Shown piece by piece: positions 17,215-42,404 of a DNA stretch of 64,000 nt; position 1 is the first letter of the stretch, and each line of letters begins with the position of its first letter. Below the pieces are notes generated by a model. It was not told where the DNA came from. It did no database searches and saw nothing but the letters and a program-made list of their open reading frames with translations. A program made the translations under genes and the position numbers. The stretch is from Frateuria terrea. Lineage in GTDB: Bacteria; Pseudomonadota; Gammaproteobacteria; Xanthomonadales; Rhodanobacteraceae. The stretch covers positions 1 to 64,000 of the forward strand of contig NZ_FOXL01000010.1 of the NCBI RefSeq assembly GCF_900115705.1, read 5' to 3'.

Positions 17215-17502
17215 ATGAAAGGGGGGCTCTGGGAGAGGGAAGCAGGCTCGGCTGCTGCCGAACCACCAACGTTCCGTGAGTTGGCGTGAATCGTTCGTCT
17301 ATCGGCGAGGCGCCGATCGGCTTTCGTACAGCTTGCGCGGGGCGCGGCGACGGATCGCCTGTTCGGCGCACGAACGACCGCCGCGCACGAAAGAGTCTGC
17401 GTCGCCTACGCCTGCTTCACCATCGATTGCGAATGATTGTGCGATCAGGCCGAGCCCGCCAGCGAACGTGAAGAACGGGTGCCCGCGCGGGCCGGCAGGC
17501 AC
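17215..17502. other. divergent promoter region, flippase / GT2-sulfotransferase operon
   Basis: This 288-bp region separates two divergent transcription units, so promoters for both should be here. No terminator, repeat or ORF with support was seen. The last 90 bp are relatively AT-rich around ATCGATTGCGAATGATTG. Confidence 0.4.
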
Positions 17503-18474
17503 ATGAGTGGAGGTGTCGTGGTACCGGATCTGACCATCGTCATTCCTTCCTACCGGTCGGAGCGCTGGGTGGCGCGCGCCATCGGCTCCGCGCTGGAGGA
17601 GGGGACACTTGCGCAGAACCTGATCGTGGTCGAGGACGGCGTCTTCGATGGCACCGCCGACGTGGTGCGAGGCTTCGAGGGCGTGCGCCTGGTGTCGCTC
17701 GAGCGCAACCTCGGCGCGCCGCATGCGCGCAACCTTGGTTTGTCGATGGCGACGACGCGCTACGTGATGTTCCTCGACGTGGACGACTACGTTGAAAACG
17801 GACTGCTGCGCGGCCTGGTCGACCGGCTCGACCAGGAGAGCGCCGATCTCGCCATCGGGCCCTGGCGCTACGACGGCAACGGCAGCGAGCGCCGTGTGCT
17901 GCGTGTTCCCGTCGCGCTGGACAATGGCGAGCGCATCTTCCGCTGGAAGGTTTCGCGGGAGTTCTTCCCGCCGTGCTGTGTCGCCTGGCGCGCCGAGAGC
18001 CTGCGCGCGATCGGCGGCTGGGACGAGCAGCTGCGCAAGGACCAGGATGGCGAGCTGGTCATCCGCGCGCTGACCCGCGGGCTGCGCGTTGCCGTGAGCA
18101 CCCAGGGCAACGGCGTGTACTGGCAGCACCACTCGCCGCATCGAGTGCACCACGCGCATCCGGAGCACGTCATGCATGCCGCCGAGGTGACCTACCGGCA
18201 AATCCGCGACTGGGTGGATGCCTGCGCAGCCCCGGCCCGCGAGCGCTATCGGACGGAGCTTGGCCGCTATTGCTGCAAGACGGCCTGGATCGCGTACTCC
18301 CGCGGCGACGACGAGGCCGGTGCGCAGTGGAGCGGCCGCGCCCGCAAGCTCGGCTTTTCCCGGCGCGGCTACAACACCAGCAGCGCGCTGCTGGCGGCGC
18401 TGTTCGGCATGCGCATGTCCTCGCGCATCAAGACGCGCGGCATGAGCATCTACCACCGACTCGCGCATCGATGA
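17503..18474 (+). CDS. glycosyltransferase family 2
   Basis: A 323-aa GT-A glycosyltransferase: LTIVIPSYRSERWV at the start, ARNLGLSMATTRYVMF, and the metal-binding DVDDY near residue 90, followed by GGWDEQLRKDQDGEL, the acceptor/catalytic segment. It differs clearly from the two paralogous GT2 proteins of the locus. The start is uncertain: ATG 17503 is used, but GGAGG at 17509-17513 sits 4 nt before GTG 17518, which would give 318 aa. Its stop overlaps the first sulfotransferase start as ATGA, making it the head of a GT-sulfotransferase-cysDNC run. Confidence 0.87.
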   Translation: MSGGVVVPDLTIVIPSYRSERWVARAIGSALEEGTLAQNLIVVEDGVFDGTADVVRGFEGVRLVSLERNLGAPHARNLGLSMATTRYVMFLDVDDYVENGLLRGLVDRLDQESADLAIGPWRYDGNGSERRVLRVPVALDNGERIFRWKVSREFFPPCCVAWRAESLRAIGGWDEQLRKDQDGELVIRALTRGLRVAVSTQGNGVYWQHHSPHRVHHAHPEHVMHAAEVTYRQIRDWVDACAAPARERYRTELGRYCCKTAWIAYSRGDDEAGAQWSGRARKLGFSRRGYNTSSALLAALFGMRMSSRIKTRGMSIYHRLAHR

Positions 18475-19463
18475 ACGCCGCCGTGTCCCGCGTGCCGCCG
18501 ACGCAGACGCCGCTTGACTTCCCGGGCCAGCGCCGGGGGCCACATCCCGTACTCGCCCATGGCGGGAACCGGACCCGACCCATGGATGGAAACATGACCG
18601 AGCCTGTACGCCGGTTCCTCAGTGAGCTCCCGCACCCGCTGCGGCGCGCCAAACGCTTCGGCCGCAGCTGGGTGCGTTTCTGCCAGCACAGGACGGCCAG
18701 CATATTTCCGCGGCCGGTGATCATCGGCGGCAGTCCGAACGCGGGAACCACGGCAATCGCCGCATGGCTTGCCAAGGCCGTCGGGACCGAGTCCAGCAAC
18801 GACCCGTTCTGGCGCGTCGCGCACTACGACGCGCAGGGGTTCCTGCTGCCTGACATCCTCGAGGGGCGACTGACCGCGGGCCAGTTCGTGGACCGGTTCG
18901 GCGCCTACTTCCAGGCCGAGATCGTCAAGGACCCGGATTTTGCGTTCCTCTACCGGCAGCTGAAGGAGCGCTTTCCGCAATCGAAACAGGTGTTCGTCGT
19001 GCGCGACCCCCGCGACAACATCCGCAGCATCCTTCATCGCCTCGGGATCCCTGGCGACCTGAAGGAGCTCGACCCACGCGATGGCTACGTCCCGGCCAGC
19101 CGGCAGCGCTGGCGGGCCATCTTCGAGGGCCATGGCCTGGGCATCACACGGGGCAACTACGTCGCGCGGCTGGCGCAGCGATGGAGCCTGGGCGTACGCA
19201 GCTACCTCGACGCGCGCTCATCCATCCACCTGGTCCGCTATGAGGACGTCGTGGCCGACAAGACCGGCGTGATCGAACAGTTGGCCGACGATCTCGACAT
19301 GCCGGTGGTGGCCGACATCAGCGGCGCGGTGGACGGATCGTTCCCGCTGCGCGGCGGCCACCACACGGCGCTGGAGACCTTCTTCGGTGCCGCCAACCTG
19401 CGCTCCATCGAAAACCTGTGTGCCGACGGCATGTCGGCGCTTGGCTACGGCAAGGAACCCTGA
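18471..19463 (+). CDS. sulfotransferase (first of a pair)
   Basis: A 330-aa PAPS-dependent sulfotransferase. The 5'-phosphosulfate loop is GGSPNAGTTAIAAWL at about residues 86-100 and the 3'-phosphate site is VFVVRDPRDNIRSIL at about 174-188, both characteristic. ATG 18471 overlaps the GT2 stop; internal Met codons at 18582 or 18594 would give a family-length protein without the odd 40-residue N-terminus. It is followed 3 bp later by a second sulfotransferase and then by cysD-cysNC, the genes that make its co-substrate. Likely acceptor: the locus polysaccharide (inference). Confidence 0.87.
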   Translation: MNAAVSRVPPTQTPLDFPGQRRGPHPVLAHGGNRTRPMDGNMTEPVRRFLSELPHPLRRAKRFGRSWVRFCQHRTASIFPRPVIIGGSPNAGTTAIAAWLAKAVGTESSNDPFWRVAHYDAQGFLLPDILEGRLTAGQFVDRFGAYFQAEIVKDPDFAFLYRQLKERFPQSKQVFVVRDPRDNIRSILHRLGIPGDLKELDPRDGYVPASRQRWRAIFEGHGLGITRGNYVARLAQRWSLGVRSYLDARSSIHLVRYEDVVADKTGVIEQLADDLDMPVVADISGAVDGSFPLRGGHHTALETFFGAANLRSIENLCADGMSALGYGKEP

Positions 19464-19466
19464 GCC

Positions 19467-20570
19467 ATGAACTGGAACTCGCTCGCAGACCGCGACGGCG
19501 GACAAGGGCGCCCGTCCGGCGGACCTGTGCCCATCCCGGCTGCCGGCAGGGACCCGCGCGGTACGCCGCCGGAAACTTGCCAGAGCCCTTCGGGCGAACG
19601 CCCGCCGGTATTCCTGCTCGGCTCGCACAAGAGCGGCAGCAGCCTGTTGCGCAGCCTTCTGGACGGCCATCCGGAACTGGCGGTGCTGCCGAAGGAAACG
19701 CACCTGTTCCAGTTCACCGACCACTGGGTGAACTACCGCCGTCGACGCAACCTGCCGCACGGGCTCGAGGGCAACGAACTGGTCGAACGGATGCTCGACC
19801 AGATCCGCCTCGATACCCGCCCGGGCAACCCGTATGCGGACGCACCGGGCTTCGCCTACCGCATGGAAGTGCTCGAACCGCGCCTGCGCGCCCTCGATCC
19901 GACCGACATGCCGGCGTTCTTCATGGGCTACATGCGCGCGGCCTATGAAGCCGCAGCCGGCACGCCACCGCGCGATGGGTCCATGCTGGTGGAGAAGTCG
20001 GTGGAACACGCCGAGTTTGCCTACGTCCTTGCGCGCTATTTCCCCGGCGCGCGCTTCATCCACATCGTCCGCAATCCCTATGCCACGGTGGTCGCGCTGC
20101 GCCGCATGCTGCAGGCGAACACGGGGAACTTCCCCTATCTGTGGCCGATGGCGTGCTCCCTGCACAACTCCTATCACCACCTGTTCACCAACCGGCTGGC
20201 GGTACCCGATTACCTCTGCATCCGCTTCGAGGACTTGCTCGGCCACATCGCCGCGACCATGCGCCAAGTGGCTTCGTTCCTGGACATCGACTACCTGGAC
20301 CTGCTTACGCGGCCCACCTCGATGGGTGAGCACTGGCAGGGAAACAGCACCAGCAACGAAGCTTTCGGCGGCGTCTCGCACAAGCCGTTGGAGGCGTGGA
20401 AGGCGCAGATCACCGATTACGAGATCGCCCTAGCGAATATGGTCGCCGGCCCAGTGCTGGAGGATTTCGGCTACGAACGGCTCGAGGCGCGCCATCCTTC
20501 ACGGCGTGCCAGGCGCGAACGAGCCAAAACCTATCTCGCCAACCGATTGGCGCTTTCGCTCGGAATTTGA
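19467..20570 (+). CDS. sulfotransferase (second of a pair)
   Basis: A 367-aa PAPS-dependent sulfotransferase unrelated at first sight to its neighbour beyond the fold. The 5'-PSB loop is LLGSHKSGSSLLRSLLDGHP at residues 50-69 and the 3'-PB motif RFIHIVRNPYATVVAL is at about 196-211. The first 45 residues are low-complexity Gly/Pro-rich. It starts 3 bp after the preceding stop and ends 125 bp before cysD. Two adjacent, divergent sulfotransferases suggest sulfation at two positions or on two sugars. Confidence 0.88.
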   Translation: MNWNSLADRDGGQGRPSGGPVPIPAAGRDPRGTPPETCQSPSGERPPVFLLGSHKSGSSLLRSLLDGHPELAVLPKETHLFQFTDHWVNYRRRRNLPHGLEGNELVERMLDQIRLDTRPGNPYADAPGFAYRMEVLEPRLRALDPTDMPAFFMGYMRAAYEAAAGTPPRDGSMLVEKSVEHAEFAYVLARYFPGARFIHIVRNPYATVVALRRMLQANTGNFPYLWPMACSLHNSYHHLFTNRLAVPDYLCIRFEDLLGHIAATMRQVASFLDIDYLDLLTRPTSMGEHWQGNSTSNEAFGGVSHKPLEAWKAQITDYEIALANMVAGPVLEDFGYERLEARHPSRRARRERAKTYLANRLALSLGI

Positions 20571-20613
20571 ATCGCGCTTGCGGCCGATATAGCTGGCGCG
20601 CATAACGGGAATC

Positions 20614-20642
20614 TATCAATTTCTTTCACGGCGCCATATCTA
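20614..20642 (+). promoter_or_regulatory. candidate promoter upstream of cysD
   Basis: In the 119-bp gap before cysD, a locally AT-rich stretch contains TATCTA (20637-20642) as a -10 candidate. The hexamer 17 bp upstream is weak. It would allow cysDNC to be expressed apart from the sulfotransferases. Confidence 0.22.
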
Positions 20643-20695
20643 AAGTCCCAGCATTGCCGACTTTGGCGTCTTCACACGGACAAGGAAACATGCCC

Positions 20696-21682
20696 ATGGC
20701 CCTGGCTGCAATTCCGGATCAGAACGGCACCCCGCGCAGCGACGCCGCAGCGCGCGCCGGCGCTGCCGACATCCAGTCACTCGCCACTTCATCGCATCTG
20801 AAGCGGCTGGAAACCGAGGCTATCCACATCATGCGCGAGGTGGCCGCGGAATTTGCCAACCCGGTGATGCTCTACTCGGTCGGCAAGGATTCCTCGGTGC
20901 TGCTGCACCTGATGCTGAAGGCGTTCTACCCCGCGCCGCCGCCGATCCCGATGCTGCACGTGGACACCACCTGGAAATTCCGCGAGATGATCGCCTTCCG
21001 CGACCGCCGCGCGAAGGAGACCGGCTGCCGTTTGCTGGTGCACACCAACCAGGAAGGCGTGGCGCAGGGGGTGAACCCGTTCAGCCACGGCGCCACCGTG
21101 CATACCGACGTCATGAAGACGCAGGCGCTCAAGCAGGCGCTCAACCAGTACAAGTTCGACGCGGCCATCGGCGGCGCGCGCCGCGACGAGGAGAAATCGC
21201 GCGCCAAGGAGCGCGTGTTCTCTTTCCGCAACGCGCAGCACCGCTGGGATCCGAAGAGCCAGCGCCCGGAGCTGTGGAGCCTGTACAACACGCGCATCCA
21301 CAAGGGCGAGAGCGTGCGCGTGTTCCCGCTGTCGAACTGGACGGAACTGGACATCTGGCTCTACATCTACCGCGAGAACATCGAGGTGCCCTCGCTGTAC
21401 CTGGCCGCCGAGCGGCCGGTGGTCGAGCGTGACGGCCAGCTGATCATGGTCGATGACGACCGCATGCCGCTCGAACCCGGCGAGGTGCCGCAGATGCGCA
21501 AGGTGCGCTTCCGCACGCTCGGCTGCTACCCGCTCACCGCGGCGATCGAGTCCGAGGCCGACACGCTGCCAGCGGTGATCCAGGAAATGCTGATCGCGCG
21601 CACCTCCGAGCGGCAGGGCCGCATCATCGACCAGGATGCCTCGGCCTCCATGGAAAAGAAGAAGCAGGAAGGGTATTTCTGA
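20696..21682 (+). CDS. cysD: sulfate adenylyltransferase subunit 2 (ATP sulfurylase small subunit)
   Basis: A 328-aa PP-loop enzyme that forms adenosine 5'-phosphosulfate from ATP and sulfate together with CysN. The PP-loop [12 protein letters not shown] is at about residues 61-72, and the family blocks [30 protein letters not shown] and LGCYPLT are intact. ATG 20696 is preferred over 20690 because AAGGA at 20682-20686 then has 9-nt spacing. Its stop overlaps cysNC as TGATG. No cysH, cysI or cysJ is nearby, so this copy probably feeds sulfation rather than, or as well as, assimilation (inference). Confidence 0.95.
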
Positions 21683-23583
21683 TGGATCTTAAGACCACCG
21701 ACAGCCAGTCGAGCGCCGCCGTCACCGCGATCGACGATTACCTGCAGCGCCACGAGACCAAGAGCCTGCTGCGCTTCATCACCTGCGGCAGCGTGGACGA
21801 CGGCAAGAGCACCCTGCTCGGGCGCCTGCTGTACGACACCAAGCTGCTGTTCGACGACCAGCTCGCGGCGCTCGAGGGCGACAGCCTGCGTCACGGCACG
21901 CAGAACGGCGAGCTGGATTTCGCACTGCTGGTCGACGGCCTGGCCGCGGAGCAGGAGCAGGGCATCACCATCGACGTGGCCTACCGCTTCTTCAGCACGG
22001 ACAAGCGCAAGTTCATCGTTGCCGACTGCCCGGGGCACGAGCAGTACACGCGCAACATGGCCACCGGAGCGTCCACCGCGGACCTCGCCGTCGTGCTGGT
22101 CGATGCGCGCAAGGGTCTGCTCACGCAGACCCGGCGGCACACCTACATCTGCGGGCTGCTTGGCATCCGCCACGTGCTGCTGGCGGTCAACAAGATGGAC
22201 CTGGCCGGCTACGCGCAGAGCACCTTCAAGCGCATCGAGAGCGACTACCGCGTGGTCGCCGCGCAGATGGGCATCGAGCACGTCACCGCCGTGCCGCTGT
22301 CCGCGCTGCACGGCGAGAACGTCTCCAACCGCTCTCAGGCGATGGGCTGGTACAACGGGCCCAGCCTGCTCGAGCACCTGGAGACGGTGCAGGTCGAGCG
22401 CGCCGTGAGCAAGCTCGGCTTCCGCATGCCGGTGCAGTGGGTGTGCCGGCCCAACCAGAATTTCCGCGGTTATGCCGGCCAGGTGGTGGCCGGTGCGATC
22501 GCCCCGGGCGACGAAGTGGTGGCGCTGCCCAGCGGCGTGCGCTCTCGGGTGGCGCGCATCGTCACGCCCGATGGCGACCTGCCGCGCGCCGTCGCCGGCG
22601 ACGCGGTGGCGATCCAACTCGAGGACGAGCGCGACATCAGCCGCGGCGACGTGATCGCGGCGATCTCCTCGCCGCCGCAGGTGGCCGACCAGTTCGCCGC
22701 GCACGTGCTGTGGATGGACGGCGCCGCATTGCTGCCCGGCCGCCCTTACTGGATGAAGATCGGCGCGCGCCTGGTCACGGCGCAGGTGACCGAGATCAAG
22801 CACCGCGTCGACGTGAACACGCAGGAGAAGCGGCCGGCCAAGCGCCTGGAACTCAACGAGGTGGGCTATTGCAACCTCGGCCTGGACCACGCGATCGCGT
22901 TCGAGTCGTACGCCGACTGCCGCGAGCTCGGTGCGTTCATCCTGATCGACCGGCAGACCAACGCCACCGTCGCCGCCGGCACGCTCGACTTCGCGCTGCG
23001 CCGCGCCGACAACATCCACTGGCAACACACCGACGTCGACCGCACGGCCCGTGCGCGCATCAAGGGCCAGACCCCGGCTTGCCTGTGGTTCACCGGACTG
23101 TCCGGCTCGGGCAAGTCGACCATCGCCAACGTGGTCGAGAAACGCCTGCACGCGATGGGCTACCACACGTACATGCTCGACGGCGACAACGTGCGCCACG
23201 GCCTCAACCGCGATCTGGGCTTCACCGAGGAGGATCGCGTGGAGAACATCCGCCGCGTTGCCGAGGTGTCGAAGCTGATGGTGGACGCGGGACTGATCGT
23301 GCTGGTGTCCTTCATCAGCCCGTTCCGCAGCGAACGCGGCATGGCGCGGCGGTTGTTCGAGAACGGCGAATTCCGCGAGGTGTTCGTCGACACGCCGCTG
23401 GAGGTGTGTGCCGAGCGCGATCCCAAGGGCCTGTACGCGAAGGCCCGCGCCGGCCAGATCAAGAACTTCACCGGTATCGACTCGCCCTACGAGCGTCCGG
23501 AGCAGCCCGAGCTGCACCTGCAGACACAGGGGCTGGCCGTGGACGAGCTGGCGCAGCGGGTGATCGATACCTTGCTGGGATGA
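21682..23583 (+). CDS. cysNC: bifunctional sulfate adenylyltransferase subunit 1 / adenylylsulfate kinase
   Basis: A 633-aa fusion. The N-terminal GTPase (CysN) has GSVDDGKST near residues 38-46, [12 protein letters not shown] and NKMDL, and couples GTP hydrolysis to APS formation. The C-terminal APS kinase (CysC) begins near residue 465 with the P-loop GLSGSGKST and makes PAPS. The start overlaps the cysD stop, so translation is coupled. PAPS is the direct donor for the two sulfotransferases encoded upstream. A strong terminator follows. Confidence 0.96.
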
Positions 23584-23670
23584 GATGGAGGCGGGAACCT
23601 CCCGGCCGTAGGCCGGGTAGGCGCCCCACGGCGAGGCTTCGGGACGTCTTGGTCTTGCCGAGGTGACATC

Positions 23671-23719
23671 AAAACCCCGGCGCATCTCCGATCCAACGGA
23701 GGTGCGCCGGGTTTTTTTT
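23671..23719. terminator. bidirectional intrinsic terminator after cysNC
   Basis: A long hairpin with arms around AACCCCGGCGCATCTCCG and CGGAGGTGCGCCGGGTT has an A-run on the left and eight T on the right. It ends the cysDNC unit and could also end the convergent sulfotransferase gene. Confidence 0.88.
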
Positions 23720-23892
23720 GCTCGACGGTGCGGTAGCCACGTTCCCGAACACAGCAGGCGTTGCCTGCCAAAGCAAAGCGAGCGGCAAGCGGTACGCCCG
23801 GACCCGTGAGCGCGAGGGGGCGGTTGAGGCGGCGCCATCCATGGCGTCGCCCGGTCCTCCGTGGTCGGCGCTATCCGGCAGCCGCCGTTGCT

Positions 23893-24789
23893 TCAGTTGG
23901 CCGCGAGCGACGAACCACGTGCCGGCGTGCCGCTGGCCAGCTGGATGGGAGCCTGTTCGTCAGGGTGTTCCCTCATGCTCGGGACCGCGTAACCGAATTT
24001 CTCCACGACCAGCCTGTCCCAGTAGTCGATCAACTGCTCCGACGGCGCGTCGTAGTAGTAGTCGAGTTTCCGCTTCCGGCTCGTGGTGTTGGTCTTGGGA
24101 CGGGAGAGCACTTTCGCTTCGGTCGCCGGGGAGAACTCGAATCCGGCGCTCTTGAGTGCGTCCAGCAGATCGGATTCCAGGTGCTCGTTGCGCACGAAGT
24201 AGTCGATGAAGCAGTTGCTTGCCTCGTAATCGGTCAGCTGGTCGCTGGTGGCGATGGCATTCAATGCATCCATGTTGCCTTTCTTGCAGGCGAACGTCTT
24301 CAGGTAGCTGTAGGTCAGGAAGCCCGTGACCTGGCCCACGCCGGATTGGGCATAGCCCTCGACGTCCGGACGGAATTCCTTGTCGTGCATCATGTGCAGC
24401 CATTCGCGGAAGGCGCCGGGGTCGTTGACGTCCTGGTAGGTGCGCCTCCATTTGTCCGCGATCCGGTTGGGCCGGCTTTGCAGGAGTTCGTGAACGGCCG
24501 ACAGCGGGTTCGTCCTCCAGCCGCGGCCCTTGAACTTGATGCCATGCTTGGTCACGTTGCCGAACACCGTGCCCTTGCGGTGGCAGCCGAAGGCCCACAG
24601 CGAGACGTACCAGTCCCACGGGTCCCTGACCGACCCCAGGAAGATCCTCCCCTCGGAAAACAGGCGCCGGCTCGCCTGGTTGTGCTTGCCGACCAGTCTT
24701 CCACCCACGAGCTCGTCGAGCAGGTCGCGGATGTGCGTGCATCCGGTTTTCTGCAGCTCGAGAAAAACGATTCTGTCCGATATGAACAT
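23893..24789 (-). CDS. sulfotransferase-family protein (third)
   Basis: A 298-aa protein with a sulfotransferase-like P-loop at the very N-terminus (LELQKTGCTHIRDLL, residues 10-24) and GSVRDPWDWYVSLWAFG at about 52-68, matching the 3'-PAPS site of the Sulfotransfer_2-like group. The remainder is charged and helical with no membrane segment. ATG 24789 is the start: GGAG lies about 8 nt upstream and the motif begins at residue 10, whereas an upstream frame start at 24876 has no such support. It lies convergent to cysDNC across the terminator. Acceptor unknown, presumably the same polysaccharide. Confidence 0.75.
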   Translation of the reverse strand: MFISDRIVFLELQKTGCTHIRDLLDELVGGRLVGKHNQASRRLFSEGRIFLGSVRDPWDWYVSLWAFGCHRKGTVFGNVTKHGIKFKGRGWRTNPLSAVHELLQSRPNRIADKWRRTYQDVNDPGAFREWLHMMHDKEFRPDVEGYAQSGVGQVTGFLTYSYLKTFACKKGNMDALNAIATSDQLTDYEASNCFIDYFVRNEHLESDLLDALKSAGFEFSPATEAKVLSRPKTNTTSRKRKLDYYYDAPSEQLIDYWDRLVVEKFGYAVPSMREHPDEQAPIQLASGTPARGSSLAAN

Positions 24790-24829
24790 GGCTTCACTCC
24801 GTTTCGTCACATCGTGGGCGGCTGTACGG

Positions 24830-24845
24830 TTGCACGGGCGTGCAA
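24830..24845. promoter_or_regulatory. 16-bp palindrome upstream of third sulfotransferase
   Basis: TTGCACG and CGTGCAA form a perfect 7-bp inverted repeat with a 2-bp centre, 41 bp upstream of ATG 24789. It is shaped like a dimeric-regulator operator; the regulator is unknown. Confidence 0.35.
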
Positions 24846-24986
24846 AGAACGACGTTTCCCCGACAACCGGATGCAACCCTTCTTTTTGGGACTTCCGTGC
24901 TCTTGCGCAGGCCTTCCGGACGCCGATGATGGGCCGGCCTGCCGGCGCATCGGGGCCGGGCGGCCCACGCGAGAGACTCTCCTATA

Positions 24987-26291
24987 TCAAGCGGCCGATC
25001 CGCGTTCCTCCGGCTCGAGCGCGTGCGAGTGGGCGACCGGCTGGTAGGTGGACGCATGGCGGTCATAGATGGTTTCCAGTCGTGCCACGCAGTCGCGGAT
25101 ATCCATGTTCTCCACCATGTGCTTCCGCCCGCCAGCGCCGAACCGGGCGGCCAGTTCGTCGTTGCCCAGCAGGGCCGCAAGGCCGTCGCGGAGGGCGGCC
25201 ACGTCCTTCTCGGCATGCGCGAAGCCGGTGCTGCCGTGGACGATGCCCTCGTCGGCACCGCCGCGCGCGGAGGTGATCACCGGTACGCCGGCAGCCTGGG
25301 CTTCCAGCAGCACGATGCCCAGGCCCTCGGCGTCACCGTTGCTCGCGGTGATGCTCGGCAGGCAGAACACGCGCGCGCGGTGCAGCCGTTCACATACCTC
25401 CCCTGGCGAGAGCGAGCCGGCGAATTCGACACGCACGCCTAGTTGCTGGGCCAGCGCGCGCAGCCTCGGCTTCTGCGGACCATTGCCCACGATCACCAGC
25501 CGCGCCTCCGGGAAGCGCTCCTGCACCTGGCTGAAGGCCTCGATCAGGTACTGGCATCCCTTCTTTTCCACCAGGCGGCCGACGAAGAGCACCTCGTTGC
25601 GCTGCGCCAGCGGCAGGCCGCCCGGGACGAAGCGGCGCGTGTCCACGCCGATGTGGTTGACGCTGATCTTCCCGGCGGGAATGCCGACCTCGATCGCGCG
25701 CTTCTTGATGGCGCGCGACACGGCGATGAAGTGCACGCGCGGATCGCGCGCGATAGCCAGCAGGCCCTTCGGATAACCGCGCAGGACGAAGCCGCCGCGT
25801 CCGGACTCCCACCACTGGCGGTCCGTATGGATGTCGTAGCCGTGCAGGGTGACCAGCACCGGCAGGTCCAGTTGCCGCGCCACCGGCCAGATCAGGTATG
25901 CGTCGGTGCCGAAGTGGACGTGCAGCAGTTGCGCCCGTTCGGCGCGCAGCCGCGCCAGCTTGTTCGGCGGCAGCGTCGCCAGCCGGGTGCTGGCCCGGGC
26001 CAAGCGGTGGAGCAGCCGGTTGCGGAAACCGACCAGGCGCACATCCAGCTCGTCCAGCGGCAATCCTGCGGGGAGAAGCCGCTCGCCGACCAGCACGCCG
26101 TGCCAGCGCACAAGCATGCGCACCTGCTCGCGGATGAAGGTTTCCGAGTAGGGCAGAAGGTCGCCCTTGTACACCAGTATCTTGCGCGACTGTCGCATGG
26201 CGTCGGTTTGGCCTGGTCGTGCATGGCACGGCCGGCTGCCGTCCTGGCTACCGGGCGGGCGATCGTTGTGAATGGATGGCGTTGGCATCAT
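24987..26291 (-). CDS. glycosyltransferase family 4 (WcaL-like)
   Basis: A 434-aa GT-B enzyme resembling colanic-acid-type glycosyltransferases: LVYKGDLLPYSETFIREQV, HVHFGTDAYLIWP, LVTLHGYDIHTDRQWW, donor-domain VLFVGRLVEKKGCQYLIEAF and the EGLGIVLLEAQAAGVPV segment with the E-x7-E active site. The start at 26291 overlaps the upstream stop (ATGATG), with GAGGGG just upstream; Met at 26198 is an alternative that removes a 31-residue leader. It ends the - strand operon that contains the flippase-ligase fusion. Confidence 0.88.
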   Translation of the reverse strand: MMPTPSIHNDRPPGSQDGSRPCHARPGQTDAMRQSRKILVYKGDLLPYSETFIREQVRMLVRWHGVLVGERLLPAGLPLDELDVRLVGFRNRLLHRLARASTRLATLPPNKLARLRAERAQLLHVHFGTDAYLIWPVARQLDLPVLVTLHGYDIHTDRQWWESGRGGFVLRGYPKGLLAIARDPRVHFIAVSRAIKKRAIEVGIPAGKISVNHIGVDTRRFVPGGLPLAQRNEVLFVGRLVEKKGCQYLIEAFSQVQERFPEARLVIVGNGPQKPRLRALAQQLGVRVEFAGSLSPGEVCERLHRARVFCLPSITASNGDAEGLGIVLLEAQAAGVPVITSARGGADEGIVHGSTGFAHAEKDVAALRDGLAALLGNDELAARFGAGGRKHMVENMDIRDCVARLETIYDRHASTYQPVAHSHALEPEERGSAA

Positions 26292-28666
26292 TGCCCCTCG
26301 ACCGTGCCCGCGATGGCGGCGTAGTCGCGAGACGAGCGGTTGCCTCTCGAGGCGGAGTCCGACGTGGGACCCTCAGGCCAGCCGAACCGCTGGCCAAGCC
26401 AGAGGTCCCAGTCGCGCGGCGCGAACACGTAGTAGCCGGCACCAGGAGTGAGCGTGAGTTCACCTATATAGATGCGCCCGTCATGCACGTAAAAATCCAC
26501 CCTCAGGTAGCCCAGTGGCTCGGCCAGGGTGGTCGCCAGCTTCAGCATTTCCTCCAGCAGCGGCGGGCGCGGACTCAGCGCGCCGTGGCACTTCTGGTTC
26601 TGCAGCTTGAACGGCGCGGGGCTCCAGTCGGCCAGGAACAGGTCCTGCGTCAGGTGCACGAAGCGCCCGCGCATGTACTGGATGAACACGAACGGTGCGC
26701 GCTCGCCGCCCGGATTGAACACGTTGAACTTGTAGTCGTCCGGCGGATTGCCGTCTTCCAGCAACGCCTTCTCGAACAGGATCCTCGGGGGGATCGCGCG
26801 ATAGTGCTTCTCGCGCTTGCGCACGGTGACCCCGCCGTCCAGCCAGCTGTTGGCCAGGGTCGCCAGCGCCTCGAGGTCTTCCTGGCGCTTGTCGTGCACC
26901 ACGTAGACCTGCCCCGCGCTGTGGTTCGACTTCATCACGAAGGTGTCGGGAAGGCGATCGAACGTATCGACGCAGACCCGCTCGCAAGAGTGGTAGAGCG
27001 GCACCAGATACCGCTCGCCCACGCGATCGGCGATATAGCCACGTGCAGCGAGCTTGTCGGCCAGGCGCGAAAAGAAGGGCCGCGGATGCCGCATCCGATG
27101 GAAGATCTTTTCCGAGAAATACCGGGGACGCCTGAAGTTGCAGAGGCGGCGGTGGGTAATGAAATACCTGTACTGGTAGAAAATCGGGTCAGGCAGATAG
27201 GCCAGCAAGCCGGCCAGTTTCTCCCGCGTGCTGGAGCGTTGAGTGGTTGTCATAGACGCCTTGTCATGTCTCGGGGCGTCATCTGCGGCGCTCCCCGGCA
27301 CGGCCAGGCCGGCGGTCACGCTGGCCCTGCTTCCTCCACTGCAGGCTAACGTTGCCGAAATCAACGCGGCGTTAAGTACGGCGCCGGCCAGGCTGAACCC
27401 GGCCACCGCCGCCACGTCGCTGTGGAACCAGGCAAAGCCTGCGTAGATGGCCGCTGCGCGCAACACCACGCTGCCGATTTCGTAGACCAGGTAGAAGCCC
27501 TGCAGGGACAGCGTGGCGATGGCGGCCACGCTGGGGCGATTGAGGAAACCAAAGAAGAGCCAGATGGCTAGCCAGCGCGCGTACTCGCCGGTGGGCGCCC
27601 AGGCTGCACCAAACACCCAGCGGAACAGCGATGGGCCGGACACCGCCACCAGACCGAACGGCACGATGCCGGCCACGGCGAGCAGGCCGGTGCCTTTGAG
27701 CAACAGTCGGCGCAGGTCCGCGCCGTGCCGCGCGGCTTCGGTGAAGCGCGGATAGAACACGTCGCTGACGGCTTTGCCGATGAGACGGAAGGGCATGGAA
27801 AGCACCGTCCGCGCGAGCGTGTAGAAGCCCGCTGCGCTGGTGCCGAACAGGCTGGCGAGCATGACCACGGGCAGGCCCTGGGCCGCGGCATTGAGCCCGA
27901 TCTGCGGCGCGCGGTAGAGCGCGAAGTCGCGATGCCGGCATGCCAGCTCGCGCAGCGACGTCTGCCCCGGCCCGGCACGGCGAAACAAACTTCCACGCAT
28001 GCCGGACGCGAGCATCGTCGCATACAGCCCATTGCCGAGCGTGGCCAGTACGACCAGCGTGGCGGCAAGCGGCTGGACGAAGCCGGCCACCGCCTTGGCG
28101 CCATTCATCAGCAGCGACTGCAGCACGGCCACGCGCGCGGTCAGGGTGAACTGCTTGGTGCGGATACGCCACTGCTCGACCACCTGCAGGCAGGCAGCGA
28201 GGAACATCGCCGGCCCCAGCCATGGCAGGAAAGGTTCGATCGCCTCAAGCTGCAGCAGCCTGACCAACGGCCCACCGACGACGAATACCGCCAGTTCGAC
28301 CAGCACCGAGCTGGTCAGCGCGATCGCCACGGACAGCCACGCCAGCCCACGGGCATCGCTTTCGCGCGCCGGCAACACGATGGCGATGGGATAGCTGAGC
28401 GCCGCGATCGGACCGATGACGCCCAGCAAGGCGGTGAAGCTGCCCAGGACGCCGAAGGCGGCCGGGCCATACTGGCGTGCGATCAGCGGCGCGCAGGCGA
28501 CGGTGACCGCTTGAGCGGCGGCCGTGCCGGTCGCCACCGCCGCAACGTTGCGCAGGAAACGGCTGCGGCTCAAGCGGTACAGGTGATGTCGCCAGCCAGG
28601 CACTGCCGATGTGATGGGCCGGCCCGCAGCGCTGGTCTGCATGGCCAGGCCGGGTTTGCTGGTCAC
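26288..28666 (-). CDS. fusion: Wzx-type flippase + TupA-like ATP-grasp ligase
   Basis: A single 792-aa frame. Residues 1 to about 450 are a MOP-type polysaccharide flippase with about 12 hydrophobic segments (FGVLGSFTALLGVIGPIAALS; later LFGTSAAGFYTLARTVLSMP). Residues from about 472 are a TupA-like ATP-grasp domain: FYQYRYFITHRRLCNF, YFSEKIFHRM, FVMKSNHSAGQV, PDDYKFNVFN, LRVDFYVHDGRIYIGELT. No stop separates them. An internal ATG at 27253 with AAGG nearby could still give a free ligase. GTG 28666 is chosen since AGGGAG lies 8 nt upstream; ATG 28726 and 28642 are alternatives. The fusion would tie substituent addition to translocation of the lipid-linked unit (inference). Confidence 0.82.
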   Translation of the reverse strand: MTSKPGLAMQTSAAGRPITSAVPGWRHHLYRLSRSRFLRNVAAVATGTAAAQAVTVACAPLIARQYGPAAFGVLGSFTALLGVIGPIAALSYPIAIVLPARESDARGLAWLSVAIALTSSVLVELAVFVVGGPLVRLLQLEAIEPFLPWLGPAMFLAACLQVVEQWRIRTKQFTLTARVAVLQSLLMNGAKAVAGFVQPLAATLVVLATLGNGLYATMLASGMRGSLFRRAGPGQTSLRELACRHRDFALYRAPQIGLNAAAQGLPVVMLASLFGTSAAGFYTLARTVLSMPFRLIGKAVSDVFYPRFTEAARHGADLRRLLLKGTGLLAVAGIVPFGLVAVSGPSLFRWVFGAAWAPTGEYARWLAIWLFFGFLNRPSVAAIATLSLQGFYLVYEIGSVVLRAAAIYAGFAWFHSDVAAVAGFSLAGAVLNAALISATLACSGGSRASVTAGLAVPGSAADDAPRHDKASMTTTQRSSTREKLAGLLAYLPDPIFYQYRYFITHRRLCNFRRPRYFSEKIFHRMRHPRPFFSRLADKLAARGYIADRVGERYLVPLYHSCERVCVDTFDRLPDTFVMKSNHSAGQVYVVHDKRQEDLEALATLANSWLDGGVTVRKREKHYRAIPPRILFEKALLEDGNPPDDYKFNVFNPGGERAPFVFIQYMRGRFVHLTQDLFLADWSPAPFKLQNQKCHGALSPRPPLLEEMLKLATTLAEPLGYLRVDFYVHDGRIYIGELTLTPGAGYYVFAPRDWDLWLGQRFGWPEGPTSDSASRGNRSSRDYAAIAGTVEGQ

Positions 28667-28868
28667 TCGGAGAACTCCCTCGGAAATGGCGCGTTCGCGG
28701 GATCCCCGCACGCTGCTGTCGAGCACGCTGGCAAAAAAACTAGGTGCGATCGGGTGGATGGGCTGTGAAGCGGCGGGCAGTGAACCGACGCGCTGAGGCT
28801 TCCGTCACACCATGCGCAGCAGTGGTCGCGCATGTGGTTTCCGGCGAGTCCTGCCTTGCCCGCACGCT

Positions 28869-28963: not shown

Positions 28964-30148
28964 TCATTCCGCCGCCGCGCCGCGCTTGGATCCGTCATCC
29001 GGCCGCCGTCCCAGGCCGGCACGGGTGGGCTTCTGCGGGAAGGCGAGGACGCGGGCGCTGGTCAGCATGCCATGTGCCGTATGCACGGGGGCGGGCGCGG
29101 GCAGGGGACGCGGAGCCGGCCCTTGGGCCTGCTGGCGCTGCCACACACGGTTGGTGGTGGTGACGTAGATGAGCGTCAGCGCGCCGAAGGCGAGCAGGTT
29201 GCTGCCGGGCGCCAGCGAGTGGGTGAGCATGCCCGTCAGCGCCAGAACGATCGCCAGCATCACCAGCGCCACCAGCGTGGTGCGCGGTCCCAGGCCGGCG
29301 CGCAGCATCATGTGGTGGATGTGGCCGCGGTCCGGCTTGAACGGGCTCTTGCCCTCGCGGATGCGGCGCACCATCACCGCCAGCGTGTCCAGCACCGGCA
29401 AGCCGACGCACCACAGCACGTCGATCGTGGAAAGCTCGTTGTCGGGCACGCTCTGGCTGAGGTGGATCAAGGTCCAGGCCAGGATGTAGCCGACCACCAT
29501 GCTGCCGGCGTCGCCGAGGAAAATCTTCTTCCCCACCAGGCCCAGGTTTACTGCCAGGTAAGGCACCAGCGCACCGGCCAGGAGTACCAGCACGATCACG
29601 CCAGGCCACTGCGGCTGGCCCTGGTACATGATGATGGCGCCGATGCTGACCAGGGCCAGCGTGCCAGCCAGGCCGTCGATGCCGTCCATCATGTTGAAGG
29701 CATTGAGCAGACCGATCACCGCGATGACCGTCAGCGGAATGCCGAACACGCCCAGTTCGAATTCCTTGCCGAAGAGATGGCCCAGCGTGTGGATGTGAAC
29801 GCCGGTCACCGCGACCATGGTCAGTACCGCGGCGGTCTGCACCAGCAGCCGCGTGCGCACGCTCAGGTCGAAGCGGTCGTCCAGCGCGCCCACCACCGCC
29901 AGCACCGCCGCCGTGGCCAGCAGCGTGCTGGTGAACAGGTGCGCCTGGCCGTCGACCACCGCACCGGCAAGCACGCCGATGAATGCCGCCAGGCCCCCGA
30001 TCAAGGGGATGTGGCCTACGTGATGTTTGCGTTCATCCGGACGATCCACCAAGCCCCAGGACTCGGCGAATCGATACAGGATGGCGATCGCCAGCGACGA
30101 AACGCAGGCGGCCGTCAGACATGCAACAAGTATCCGGGAGTACTGCAT
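28964..30148 (-). CDS. WecA/MraY-family undecaprenyl-phosphate sugar-1-phosphate transferase
   Basis: A 394-aa polytopic enzyme that starts repeat-unit synthesis by moving a HexNAc-1-phosphate from its UDP-sugar to undecaprenyl phosphate. Seen: DRPDERKHHVGHIPLIGG at the first cytoplasmic loop, GALDDRFDL, the catalytic Asp-rich NAFNMMDGIDGLAG, GDAGSM, and the DRGHIHHMML histidine motif, all in family order across about 11 helices. The cytoplasmic C-tail is Pro/Ala-rich. ATG 30148 gives a hydrophobic start; 30163 is an alternative. It is the only initiating transferase in the window, so the exopolysaccharide probably begins with GlcNAc or a related sugar. Confidence 0.88.
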   Translation of the reverse strand: MQYSRILVACLTAACVSSLAIAILYRFAESWGLVDRPDERKHHVGHIPLIGGLAAFIGVLAGAVVDGQAHLFTSTLLATAAVLAVVGALDDRFDLSVRTRLLVQTAAVLTMVAVTGVHIHTLGHLFGKEFELGVFGIPLTVIAVIGLLNAFNMMDGIDGLAGTLALVSIGAIIMYQGQPQWPGVIVLVLLAGALVPYLAVNLGLVGKKIFLGDAGSMVVGYILAWTLIHLSQSVPDNELSTIDVLWCVGLPVLDTLAVMVRRIREGKSPFKPDRGHIHHMMLRAGLGPRTTLVALVMLAIVLALTGMLTHSLAPGSNLLAFGALTLIYVTTTNRVWQRQQAQGPAPRPLPAPAPVHTAHGMLTSARVLAFPQKPTRAGLGRRPDDGSKRGAAAE

Positions 30149-30394
30149 AGTGGCTAGTCCCATCGTCCTGATTGGGCCATGCCGCAGGCGGTTCTTTCCC
30201 ACCAGTTGGCACGGCACCACCCGCGTTAGCAGGCAAAACCGGATATCCCCGTTCCCTGGCCCCCGTGAGGAGGCTTCCGGCAAGACTAGGCAGGCACCAG
30301 TGCAATTGACGTCAATGGGAGACAGGCGCCGCCGGCCTGCAAGGAAGGCGCCGCGGGCCTGTCCCGGCCGCTTGGCGATTCAGTGAAGAATCAG

Positions 30395-32236
30395 TCAGCG
30401 GAACAGCAGATTGATCATCACCAGCGTGGCCACCAGCATCGCCAGCGTGAGCGGCACGCCGACGCGCAGAAAGTCCTTGCCGCGGTAGCCGCCGGGGCCA
30501 GCCACCATCATCAGGGCCGGGTGGCCGGAGCTGAGCAGGAAGGTGTTGGACGAGGATACCGCGACGATCAGCGCGTACGCTGAAGGGTTGCCGCCGGTGG
30601 CCACCGCCACGCTGATCGCGATCGGCACCATCATCACCGTGGCGCCCACGTTGGACATGACCTGCGAGAACAGCAGCGTGAGCACCGCCAGGCAGGTCTG
30701 CAGGATCCATGGCGAGGCGCCGCCGAGGTGGTTGAGCACCTCCTGCGCCAGCCAGGCCGCGGTGCCGGTGGCGTCCATCGACCAGCCCAGTGGAATGAGA
30801 CAGGCCGTGACGAAAATCGTCTTCCAGTTGACCGCCTTGTAGGCCTCGTCCATGTTCAGTACGCCGGTCAGCAGCATGCCGATCGCGCCGGTCATCATCG
30901 CTACCGACAGGTCCAGGTGGGTGAACAGCGCCAGGCACTTGGCCAGCAGGAAGAAACCCACCGCCTGCCAGATCTTGCCGGGGCGCTGCTCCTCCTTGGG
31001 AATGTCGGTGACGACCACCAGGTCCTTGTCCTCGGTCGCCAGCGCCAGGTCGCGCCAGCTCGAGTGCAGCACCAGCGTGTCGCCGGCGCGCAGGCTCACG
31101 CCGCGCACGTCGTCGCGGAACACCTGGTCGCCGCGGTTCACCGCCAGCACCGAGATGCCATAGCGCTTGCGCAGGCGCAGATCGCCCACGCTCTGCTTGA
31201 GGAAGCGCGATGACGGCGGCAGCACCGCCTCGGAGATGCCCGCGCGGGTCGGGTTGAACAACTCGCCCAGCTGGCGCATGCGCGGCGAGACCTTGCACAG
31301 CTGGTTGTTGGCGAAGCGGCTGATCTCCTCGCGTGGCGCCAGCACGCCGAGCACCGAGCCGACCCAGATCACGTAGTCGACCGGCGGCGCCATGCGCGCA
31401 TCGTTGCCGCTCTTGATCGCCAGGATCAGTGGCGCGCCATGCAACTGCTCCACCTCGCCGATGCTCATGCCGACCAACGGGCTTTCGGCGGTGACGGTGA
31501 GCTCGGCCGTCTCGCCGCCGATGCCGTAGGTCTCGGCGAAGTAGCTCTCGGTGCGGCCGGGGGTCACCTTCAGGCGTTCGTCCTCGCGCTCGGGCAGCAG
31601 CTTGCGGGCGAACAGCCAGAAATATCCGATGCCGAGCAACGCCAGCACCAGGCCCACCGGGGTCACGCTGAACAGGCCGAACTTCGGAATGGTGTGCGCG
31701 CCGGGCGGCAGGTTCGCGTTGGCGCTGGCGATCAGGTCGTTGAGAACGATCAGCGGCGAGTTGGCGATCAGCGTGGTGTTGGTCGCGGTCAGGATGCAGA
31801 AGCCCATCGGCAACAGCAGCCGCGAGATCGGCACGCCGGTGCGCGCGGACAGGCGGCTGGTCACCGGGATCATCAGCGCGGCCAGCGCCTGGCTCGGGAT
31901 CACCGCGCTGAACAGGCTGGTGACCGAGTTGATCACCACGCCCAGCCGCGATTCCTTGCCGCGCGCCATGCGCATCACGAAGCTGGCGGTCAGCGAGAGC
32001 ACGCCGGCGCGGTCCAGTCCCGCGCCCATGATCATGATCGCGATGATTGCGATCACCGCGTTGCCGGCGAAGCCGTTGAATACGCGGTCCGAAGGAATCA
32101 GCCCGGTCAGGCCGATCACCACCACCACCAGCAGCGCGACCATGTCGGCGCGGATCCATTCCAGCACCAGCATCAGCATGGTGAAGCCCACCAGCCCGAG
32201 TACCAGGATCATTTCGGGGGTGAGCGCGAGGGCCAC
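30395..32236 (-). CDS. SLC13-family anion permease with two TrkA-C domains
   Basis: A 613-aa inner-membrane transporter of the DASS/SLC13-like group. Hydrophobic N-terminal helices (MILVLGLVGFTMLML, VVVVIGLTGLIP) and the substrate-site loop TATNTTLIANSPLIVLNDL are visible. Two central TrkA-C (RCK-C) domains follow: EVEQLHGAPLILAIK and RKRYGISVLAVNRGDQV. C-terminal helices include a second symmetrical loop with SNVGATVMMVPIAIS. Substrates in the family include sulfate, dicarboxylates and other anions. Its position near a sulfation locus makes sulfate possible, but this is weak inference. The start is uncertain: GTG 32236 or ATG 32212. Confidence 0.82.
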   Translation of the reverse strand: MALALTPEMILVLGLVGFTMLMLVLEWIRADMVALLVVVVIGLTGLIPSDRVFNGFAGNAVIAIIAIMIMGAGLDRAGVLSLTASFVMRMARGKESRLGVVINSVTSLFSAVIPSQALAALMIPVTSRLSARTGVPISRLLLPMGFCILTATNTTLIANSPLIVLNDLIASANANLPPGAHTIPKFGLFSVTPVGLVLALLGIGYFWLFARKLLPEREDERLKVTPGRTESYFAETYGIGGETAELTVTAESPLVGMSIGEVEQLHGAPLILAIKSGNDARMAPPVDYVIWVGSVLGVLAPREEISRFANNQLCKVSPRMRQLGELFNPTRAGISEAVLPPSSRFLKQSVGDLRLRKRYGISVLAVNRGDQVFRDDVRGVSLRAGDTLVLHSSWRDLALATEDKDLVVVTDIPKEEQRPGKIWQAVGFFLLAKCLALFTHLDLSVAMMTGAIGMLLTGVLNMDEAYKAVNWKTIFVTACLIPLGWSMDATGTAAWLAQEVLNHLGGASPWILQTCLAVLTLLFSQVMSNVGATVMMVPIAISVAVATGGNPSAYALIVAVSSSNTFLLSSGHPALMMVAGPGGYRGKDFLRVGVPLTLAMLVATLVMINLLFR

Positions 32237-32390
32237 TAGCGAGCGTCCAGGAAGGGCTGGTGGTGGAAGCGGATGGGATTGTGCAGTGGATGCCTCACGC
32301 GGCCGGGCCCGTCCCTGTTTGCCCGCCAGTATAAGCGGCACGTTGCAGTGGCTGGTGAACCACGGGCTTGCGCGGTGACACATTCTTGAA

Positions 32391-33355: not shown

Positions 33356-35578
33356 TCAGTGCTGTGGATCGAAGCGATGCGCCGGCTCGTGCCGGGGATG
33401 CGGCGCGGGCGCCTGCGACTGCGCGGGTTGCGCCTGGCGTGGCGGCGGCGCTGAACGCTGCATGGGCGCCGCGTGCGGCATCGGTCGCATCTGGCGGAAG
33501 TCCGGCGAGCGCTGGAAGCGCGGCGGCGGGGCTGCCGCGCGGGCGTGCAGTTGCGCGTCGAAATCCGGCGCGCGCAGGTGCGCCGGCTGGGTGGGGCGGT
33601 CCATGCCGCGTACCGGCGATGGACGCGGCATGGGCTCGCGCCGTGCGTCCTCGATGCGCGCCGCGCGGGCACGGGCGTCGAAGTCCGGCGCACGCTGGAA
33701 GCGCGGGCCGGCCTCCGCGTCCGGTCGGCGGACCGGAGTGCGCGATGCATCCGCACGCTCGAAATGCGGCACCTGCGGCAACGTCGGTGCCGCCCGATCG
33801 CGATCGGTGCGGGCGGTGGAGATGAAACTCACGCCCGGGCGCGGCTGCGCGGGCTCGCCTGCCTCATGCGCACGCACGAAGCGCGCCGAGCGCAATTCGC
33901 CCGGCCGCAGCGGCATCTCGCGCGGCGCCATGCGAGCGGGTACGCCTGCGGTGCGGACGTCGCGCCCGCCGGCCTGGATCGGGACGCGGGGCGCTTCCCG
34001 TGCCTGGCCGAGGCCACGGGCCGGGACGATGCGCGCGACTGCCGGGAGCGTATCGGCATGCGGGCGCAGCACGCGCACGTGCGCCGGCGCCGCCAGCGGC
34101 CGGGCGTGGGTGGCGCGGTCGGCCACCAGTTCGGCACTGGGCGCATGCCGTGCCACCACGGCGCGACGAAAACCCTGTGCCGGCAGCGCGCCAGCGCGCG
34201 GCGGACGCGGCGGCGCGAAGCTGTGTGGCGTGGGTTTCGGCGTAGCCGCGCGGCCGAGCAGCCGGGCGCCGCCGAGCTTGTCCGGATCGATGTTCAGCCG
34301 ATGCCGCTGCACGCGGTCGGCGTTGGCAAAATTGCGCGCCGGCACGGCGGTGAAGCCGCGTGGTCCCTTGCCGTGCAGCGCACGCACCGGCGGCGCGATG
34401 CCGCGGTGCCAGTCGCGGTAGCGGCGGTCGACGCGTTCGCTGACCGCCCGGTCGCGCATGTGGATGTTGGTCACGTTGATCCGCGTGTAGTAGCGACGGC
34501 TGCCGCGGTACCACGGGTCGTAGACGTCGCCCGGTCCGAGCGGGTACCAGCCGATCGGGGCGCCGCTGCCCACCGACGCGCGCCAATGGCCGCCACCGAC
34601 GAACGCGACCAGCGCCGGCGCATACACCGGGCGCCAGCCGATCGGGCCGGGCACCCAGCACCAGCCGCGGCTGCGCCAGGCCCAGCGGCCGTAGTGGTAG
34701 GGCGCGAAGCCCCAGGGCGCATCGTCCACCCAGGTCCAGCCCCACGGGCCGACCCAGGCCCAGTGGCCGTCCCGGTAAGGCGCCCAGCCGGTGTCGACGT
34801 GCGCCGGGTACCACACCTGCCCGTACTCCGGATCGCTGCTCCAGTCGCCGTACCGGTCCAGGTCCTGGTAGCCGATCACGTCGTCGGAAACGTAACGGCG
34901 CGAGTCGGAATCGGCGTAGCGCCGATCGCGCTCGTCGCTCCAGGCATCGAAGTCGTCGCCACCGGCGAGGTCTTCCACGGCGACGTCGGCCAGCGCGGAG
35001 TCGGCGAAGCGGTAGCTGCGGCCGGCGACCACCAGCCGCTGCGCATCGTTCTGGCCGTACACCGTGGCGTTGCCGTCGAAGGCGGTAATGCGGGTGGCCT
35101 GGCCGTCGGCCCCGACGTCCACGCGGAAGCTGCCCGGGTGGTCGACCACCAGCGCCACGGTCGGCGTGTCGATCTCGTAGCTCTGGCCTTCGTCGAGCTG
35201 GCGCACGGTGAGGCTGAGCGTGCCCTGGGTGAGCTCGAGCTGGGCCAGCTGGTCATCCAGCTGCAGGAAGCCTACGTCGGTGCCGCCGTCCAGGCGCAGG
35301 GCGGCGCCGTCCAGTTCCAGTTCGGCGCGCGCGCCGGTGCTGCTGGACAGCCGGTCGCCGGTGGTCAGCGGGCGGTTGATGCCGGCTTCGCCCCAGTCCT
35401 GCGCGCCGGAAGGCAGCAGGCCCACATCGCCTTCCATATAGGAAAGGCGGGCGACCCGGTCCGGCGGATCGCCCGCGGTATCGGCCGCTGCCTGCGCCGG
35501 CAGGACACCGGCCGCGCACAGCAGCAGGGTGGCGGCGCAGGCGCGCCAGAGGAGCTGCAGTTTCGAAGGTGCACGCAT
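33356..35578 (-). CDS. secreted FecR/DUF6600-like protein with repetitive C-terminus
   Basis: A 740-aa exported protein. The signal peptide is [22 protein letters not shown]. Next comes a FecR-like domain ([35 protein letters not shown]) followed by an aromatic region with repeated WxW units ([35 protein letters not shown]), the DUF6600 pattern. The last 300 residues are Pro/Arg/Ala-rich and repeat motifs such as [20 protein letters not shown] and RFQRSPDF. Function is unknown; a cell-envelope or surface-assembly role is plausible. ATG 35578 is chosen: GGAGGA lies 7 nt upstream and the signal peptide begins there. Confidence 0.8.
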
Positions 35579-35800
35579 GGGATTTCCTCCGCCGTGTCCT
35601 CGCGATAGAACGGCCAGCCTCACGAGGCGATGACCGATTATGGGCCGGCCGCCCACTGCGCAACGGCCGGGTGGGCCGACGGTTCAGCCGGCCGCCATGT
35701 GCGGTTCATGCCCGGTGCGGGCAGGGCATGAACCGGATCGTCGCCCGAGCAAACCCCGTTCCCCAACTCCCGCTTCCCGGGTTACCATCAGTGGCCACAA

Positions 35801-42239: not shown

Positions 42240-42326
42240 CGGGCGGAGTCCCTGTGGTGCGTGCCGCGCATCTTATACGTTCATCGCGATGAAGCGATAG
42301 ATGGACCGGCGGCTTCGTCGCCAGAG

Positions 42327-42362
42327 CAGCCCTCACCCAATCCTCCCCCCCGCGGGAGAGGG
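42327..42362. repeat. REP-like repeat, inverted copy 3a
   Basis: A reverse-orientation copy: CCTCACCCAATCCTCCC, then CGCGGGAGAGGG. It pairs with copy 3b 42 bp away in opposite orientation, a BIME-like arrangement. Confidence 0.6.
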
Positions 42363-42404
42363 ATCAACGCGGCCGGCCGCCGGGTGCTCGGTGCGCCATC
42401 GACA

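Follow-up and report, generated by a model that had tools for sequence, protein, structure and literature searches.

A single reading frame joining a Wzx-type flippase to a TupA-like ATP-grasp ligase in Frateuria terrea: a probable lineage-specific merger of two overlapping genes

Introduction

How do a polysaccharide flippase and an ATP-grasp ligase come to share one reading frame, and does such a frame amount to a new kind of protein? The question is raised by a 64,000-nucleotide stretch of Frateuria terrea DNA (positions 1 to 64,000 of contig NZ_FOXL01000010.1, assembly GCF_900115705.1; hereafter the window), in which one frame on the minus strand joins a MOP/Wzx-type flippase to a TupA-like ligase. 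A prediction made earlier from the sequence alone (the original prediction) had proposed that a 792-residue fusion couples substituent addition to translocation and that it may be undescribed, with the loss of a stop codon between two formerly overlapping genes as an alternative. Here we argue, with a probability of roughly 0.57, that the frame arose within one lineage by the in-frame fusion of two genes which usually remain separate and are coupled in translation.

Results

The minus-strand open reading frame at 26288-28726 is uninterrupted and has 812 codons counted from its first GTG (28726); the plus strand over 26288-28666 is interrupted by internal stops. An in-frame GTG at 28666 provides an alternative start and yields the 792 residues of the original prediction, which was right about the length and about the joining of the two domains and left the strand unstated. 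A further in-frame ATG is residue 29. Alignments to relatives begin at residues 26-50 of the flippase half, and any of these three codons may be the start.

Both domains exceed their Pfam cut-offs. Polysacc_synt_3 (PF13440) matches residues 82-378 with 42.5 bits against a cut-off of 23, spanning model positions 2-290 of 293, and ATPgrasp_TupA (PF14305) matches residues 552-781 with 108.8 bits against a cut-off of 25, spanning model positions 15-240 of 241. The NCBIfam MOP flippase model PRK10459.1 scores 37.7 bits, far below its cut-off of 273. From the Pfam matches and the alignments to relatives, the flippase half occupies 27254-28726 and the ligase half 26288-27253, stop codon and an internal ATG at 27253 included, both on the minus strand; the ATP-grasp fold of the structural model also underlies the second assignment.

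In related bacteria the two halves are neighbors. All six genomes of the genus set, the window's own included, match the fused protein, and the WecA-type Glycos_transf_4 gene found upstream of the frame (28964-30283, minus strand; Pfam and alignment) marks the same site in all five congeners. Beside it, two congeners (G001 and G005) have a flippase gene and then a ligase gene, and the other three (G002, G003 and G004) have the ligase with no flippase in between. Flippase then ligase, as two genes, is also the arrangement in Serpens gallinarum and Pseudomonas flexibilis. These four are the paired relatives referred to below; the pairs of two further genomes (G1023 and G1037) are the same sequences as those of S. 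gallinarum (L037) and P. flexibilis (L039) and were counted once. In every one of the four, the TGA of the flippase gene overlaps the ATG of the ligase gene in the four bases ATGA. The gene order is that of the window, and identities are 57-60% for the flippase and 55-60% for the ligase. The relatives thus agree with the alternative that the original prediction had offered, namely that two genes once overlapped and then ceased to be separate. It had named unfused genes at this site in relatives as evidence against a fusion, and G001 and G005 do carry such genes; these describe the older state, and leave an error in the present genome unproven. G002 and G003 (loci L031 and L032; also L023 and L024) have three TupA-like ligases each, two in the cluster and one elsewhere.

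The trees and the paired relatives together indicate that separate genes are the likely older state and that the fusion is derived. In a flippase tree without far outgroups, the window's half was sister to the flippases of G001 and G005 (support 98/95); the group formed by these three and the flippases of the two Pseudomonadaceae among the paired relatives reached 81/78, under the tool's threshold. A clade of the ligase half with the congeners' site ligases was neither shown nor rejected (approximately unbiased test, p-AU 0.17). Compared with congeners, both halves are 55-61% identical, the sulfate-activation genes cysD and cysNC ~88-94%, and the upstream Glycos_transf_4 gene 76-81%. Since the neighboring downstream Glycos_transf_1 gene is itself 64-65% identical to its counterparts, the locus appears to be variable as a whole and the divergence of the pair unexceptional. 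The most parsimonious inference is that the two genes became fused within the window's lineage when the flippase tail changed in length by a net one base.

Does the fusion occur elsewhere? No second flippase-ligase frame was found in protein searches of 99, 369, 6 and 398 genomes, of which those of 369 and 398 scored at most two candidates per genome, or in PF14305 surveys of 233, 398 and 398 genomes, which were overlapping draws. In a search of 72,556 plasmid records, none of the 148 matching records covered 80% of the query. The three PF14305 surveys listed 14, 53 and 29 matches, among which the only open frames of at least 700 residues were those of the window and of one other genome (G829). 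A conserved flippase-TupA fusion family is therefore not borne out, the two-domain frame being present in the window's genome only, among the genomes searched; the look for the same architecture elsewhere, as recommended in the original prediction, turned up no other case in these genomes and plasmids.

Several long frames were set aside as candidates for a second fusion. The 2066-residue frame of G829 (L123, 4609-10809), from a small (0.9 Mb) genome, contains glycosyltransferase family 2 (GT2) and TupA-like domains and a weak DUF1796 match, with no flippase match; by eye, it also has long coiled-coil-like segments. Frames of 586 residues in G542, 651 and 529 in G847, and 509 in G922 contain a TupA domain without a flippase match, and long frames in G1031, G1063 and G1053 contain, as judged by eye, a flippase only. 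Two candidates given as 1109 (G1177) and 1120 (G480) by the search read as flippase frames of 495 and 420 residues, respectively, the former on a 6-kb contig that lacks any ligase match. In a 780-residue frame of G368 (L120, 1771-4113), a flippase is followed by ~340 C-terminal residues without a Pfam match; these look glycosyltransferase-like by eye and may represent another kind of flippase fusion. A 547-residue frame in G1572 was outside the set of long frames inspected. Flippase relatives without an adjoining ligase match were found in G290, G578, G469, G433, G1149 and G1177; for G1149, whose flippase is 57% identical, no ligase match was present in the 10 kb read. G1140 has both genes on the same strand but separated by more than 1 kb, the flippase being 50% identical and the ligase, a distant one, 30%.

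If the fusion derives from an overlapping pair, where was the older stop? The junction (27251-27350, minus strand) is a linker formed by a low-confidence tail that, judged from alignment, codon use and the structural model, would hold the displaced stop. After an AC segment shared near the flippase end, the fused frame continues for 29 residues to ATG 27253, where all four paired relatives reach the flippase stop after 15-20 residues. Were the off-frame TGA at 27281-27279 the stop, the tail past the AC motif would have ~20 residues. Read on the minus strand, off-frame ATGA motifs occur in the tail at 27282-27279 and 27267-27264, and the ATGA of the ligase start lies at 27253-27250; the tail's homopolymers are a G4 (27296-27293) and a C4 (27276-27273), with none longer than four nearby.

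The ATG at 27253 corresponds to the ligase start of the paired relatives. Counted from it, the D of an LPD motif is residue 22, and the equivalent residue (LPD or SPD) is at positions 21, 21, 19 and 15 in the paired relatives. The original prediction had pointed to this ATG and to a nearby AAGG. Both exist, but the 20 nucleotides before the ATG pair with the anti-Shine-Dalgarno tail at -3.5 kcal/mol, and 383 of 1000 random 20-mers from the window pair equally well or better. Since the match does not rise above chance, we dropped the internal Shine-Dalgarno sequence as evidence. The alignment is the better argument for taking ATG 27253 as the native start of the ligase, and internal initiation there is plausible.

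Codon use was compared between the fused frame and frames ending at either candidate stop. An older ATGA overlap exactly at 27253 was rejected, as codon use prefers the fused frame by 5-10 nats over a frame ending there; as background, a preference of at least 4 nats for the wrong frame occurs in just 12 of 5776 real 17-codon windows. Placing the older stop at 27281-27279, with a short spacer after it, would be at least as good. For a frame ending at 27281 the test ranges from 8 nats in favor of the off-frame reading to 6 nats in favor of the fused one: with the slip put at or above script position 90 the off-frame reading gains 7.9, 7.4 and 4.4 nats, at 108-126 the fused frame gains 3.4-5.7 nats, and at 135-153 the off-frame reading gains 0.5-2.1 nats. 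The test is thus undecided for this placement because its outcome swings with the assumed slip position. Either stop could be explained by a length change of as little as one net base.

The ligase half has kept its core. In 22 other ligases 37 alignment columns do not vary, and the fused ligase retains all of them; an earlier list of invariant columns, drawn with the fused ligase in the alignment, was no test and was recounted without it. In the predicted structure, 20 of the 21 blocks over residues 551-760 have a predicted local distance difference test (pLDDT) score of at least 80, and the linker residues 451-490 fall below 50. Structural comparison aligned 202 residues (model 527-783) with the D-Ala-D-Ala ligase 6u1k_D (Z 13.6, root-mean-square deviation 3.8), matches within one Z unit of it being counted as tied, and the best Foldseek match (E 5.7e-05) was to a D-Ala-D-Ala ligase; the second structural comparison effectively covered residues 511-785 only. 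The ligase part is thus confidently modeled and has the ATP-grasp fold seen in Ddl, RimK and LysX. By analogy with its family, it would most likely form an amide on a sugar carboxylate using ATP.

The flippase half has 10 hydropathy peaks above 1.1, and the low-confidence model suggests ~12 helices. In the structure alignment, flippase tails strayed into the ligase half, and the version used had 26-29 misplaced residues in three of 15 rows, which leaves the modeled structure of this half weak. MOP/Wzx flippases have 12-14 membrane helices with both termini in the cytoplasm. Given this topology and an even number of helices, the ligase should face the cytoplasm, where ATP is. Family membership and the Glycos_transf_4 neighbor point to export of a lipid-linked oligosaccharide over the inner membrane as the predicted function of the flippase.

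The fused frame sits in a polysaccharide cluster, between the Glycos_transf_4 gene and a Glycos_transf_1 glycosyltransferase gene (24987-26291, minus strand; Pfam) whose ATG overlaps the ligase stop. The cluster also contains two Glycos_transf_2 genes, a second, separate flippase gene (15679-17214, minus strand; PF13440/PF01943) and the stand-alone TupA-like ligase (14484-15485) to which the original prediction had likened the fused domain. This plus-strand paralogue carries PF14305 and shares ~60% identity with the fused ligase.

Sulfate-activation genes named from their Pfam domains, cysD-like (20654-21682) and cysNC-like (21682-23583), together span 20654-23583 on the plus strand, with sulfotransferase genes beside them. 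Sulfotransferase domains are found at 19467-20570 and within the frame 17973-19463 (cluster stretch 17437-24876). CysD-like and cysNC-like genes are also present in the stretch read from each of the five congeners. This gene content suggests that Frateuria may make a sulfated exopolysaccharide, since sulfate-activation and sulfotransferase genes share the cluster and the former recur in 5/5 congeners.

Three further frames are recorded here. The 327-residue protein encoded at 23893-24876 (minus strand) has no Pfam or NCBIfam match; the clusters of G002 and G003 each hold two copies of its homologues (48-58%). A frame at 33356-35656 (minus strand) carries a DUF6600 domain. In the very long, GTG-started frame at 41418-46976 (plus strand), phosphoenolpyruvate carboxylase occupies just residues 954-1852, and the first half has probably stayed open by chance, the DNA being rich in GC.

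Discussion

How well does the proposal of a lineage-specific fusion withstand its difficulties? Several observations weigh against it. The fusion is known from one genome of one strain. In the best ligase tree, the window's half is on a long branch outside the 100/100 clade of the congeners' site ligases. It keeps 123 of the 136 columns invariant in its eight nearest ligases and misses the most, with the other rows of that set missing 0-5; set against the intact wider columns, this makes it a ligase whose core is kept and which is nevertheless the most divergent of the nine. The flippase half was modeled poorly (block pLDDT 40-80). Finally, codons 27280-27254, the nine directly upstream of the ligase start, have a mean per-codon score of -4.26 when read in the fused frame; only 4.2% of real in-frame nine-codon windows are that low, and the intergenic mean is -4.27. 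From their codon use these nine look intergenic-like, as if the join were young or untranslated.

Could the join instead be an artifact? If a sequencing or assembly slip has left the assembled flippase tail off by a net base, the strain would have two genes, as the four paired relatives do, and the locus would be an ordinary operon. We consider this unlikely, although much fits it. A one-base length difference would be enough, the surveys yielded no second case of the fusion, and the off-frame TGA would restore a tail of the length seen in relatives. The intergenic-like codons fit an older stop near 27281 that went out of frame either recently or in the assembly. However, the tail offers no homopolymer longer than four, and the conserved neighbors compared (cysNC, cysD, the transporter gene at 30395-32383 and the Glycos_transf_4 gene) each align to congeners in a single stretch, nearly full length and with no frameshift. 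If the slip is placed together with an older overlap at 27253, the codon preference of 5-10 nats for the fused frame also speaks against it. Because the neighbors lack frameshifts and no long homopolymer is present, a real change is mildly favored over a slip.

It is also possible that the frame is truly fused but that mainly two proteins are made, through initiation at 27253 or cleavage of the linker, in which case the fusion would be near-neutral. The position of ATG 27253 at the paired relatives' ligase start, the predicted disorder of the linker and the retained ligase core are what this explanation would expect. The ordinary Shine-Dalgarno match before 27253 does not favor it, however, and coupling through a nearby in-frame flippase stop has been lost; we doubt that it is the main outcome. 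Least probable is that a divergent cassette brought an older fusion from an unsampled lineage, where it may be widespread: the halves differ more from congeners than cysD, cysNC or Glycos_transf_4 do, and the best tree leaves the ligase out of the clade of the congeners' site ligases. Against this, the Glycos_transf_1 gene downstream is itself only 64-65% identical to its counterparts, no other fusion turned up in the genomes or plasmid records searched, and the flippase half clusters with flippases of congeners.

If the frame is a lineage-specific fusion, a net one-base change in the non-conserved flippase tail would have put the stop out of frame and the tail into register with the ligase. 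The product would be a flippase of ~12 helices with both ends in the cytoplasm, bearing an ATP-grasp amidoligase on a flexible linker of 30-40 residues. Using ATP, the ligase would activate a carboxylate, most likely that of a uronic acid in the repeat unit, and join an amine to it. Amidation would occur on the cytoplasmic face and precede transport of the lipid-linked unit by the flippase. Initiation at ATG 27253 may still provide some free ligase. Amidation of a uronic acid before flipping is a predicted step, and any gain from tethering would be hypothetical.

Coupling of substituent addition to translocation by means of the fusion, as the original prediction envisaged, is possible; no second fusion that would point to its conservation turned up in the genomes and plasmids searched. 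In its strongest form, a tethered amidoligase would modify each lipid-linked repeat unit at the flippase mouth and so limit export to decorated units; this would be an MprF-like principle, independently assembled from polysaccharide parts and within reach of an ATGA-overlapping pair by a single-base change. We think such a one-chain "decorate-and-flip" arrangement improbable. Should the fused protein be produced and functional, nature would have supplied a single chain on which physical coupling of repeat-unit decoration to flipping in Wzx-type pathways could be tested. The case also illustrates how a net change of one base may be all that separates an ATGA-overlapping, translationally coupled gene pair from fusion.

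How new is this architecture? The suggestion that it may be undescribed holds narrowly, for the flippase/TupA combination: our literature search, to which subscription papers were mostly inaccessible, found no report of it among the papers listed. Fusion of a TupA-like ligase to a glycosyltransferase is already known, as is a flippase on one chain with a modifying enzyme (MprF), as far as the accessible portions of the reports cited here describe them. In Cj1438 of Campylobacter jejuni HS:2, a GT2 glycosyltransferase is joined to a TupA-like ATP-grasp amidoligase that forms an amide at the C6 carboxylate of glucuronic acid (PMC11800379). As in the window's protein, the TupA-like domain is C-terminal and follows another enzyme of the same envelope-polysaccharide pathway; the partner is a glycosyltransferase instead of a membrane flippase, and we liken the two by description, not by sequence. 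The G829 protein similarly places its TupA-like domain (residues 667-906 of 2054) in a long multidomain chain with a glycosyltransferase, and differs from the window's protein in having no flippase match.

Other comparisons start from the flippase. MprF combines an aminoacyl-phosphatidylglycerol synthase with a flippase on one chain (PMC8974105) and, like the window's protein, has an N-terminal membrane flippase and a C-terminal hydrophilic enzyme, which in MprF adds an aminoacyl substituent. Its domains are different and its substrate is a lipid, so that, on the available description, the two share a principle only and no homology is implied. VanZ-domain proteins are described as fused to, or neighbors of, lipid-carrier flippases of the MviN_MATE clan and other envelope-polysaccharide genes (PMC12419801). 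Here too, going by the accessible text, a modifying domain is linked to a flippase by neighborhood or direct fusion, although VanZ is not an ATP-grasp ligase. A further comparison is with the pairs of the two Frateuria congeners, Serpens gallinarum and Pseudomonas flexibilis, in which both halves are homologous to those of the window's protein but are encoded by two ATGA-overlapping genes rather than one frame. Set beside these systems, the frame probably represents no new type of machine but a merger confined to one lineage, or a slip in sequencing.

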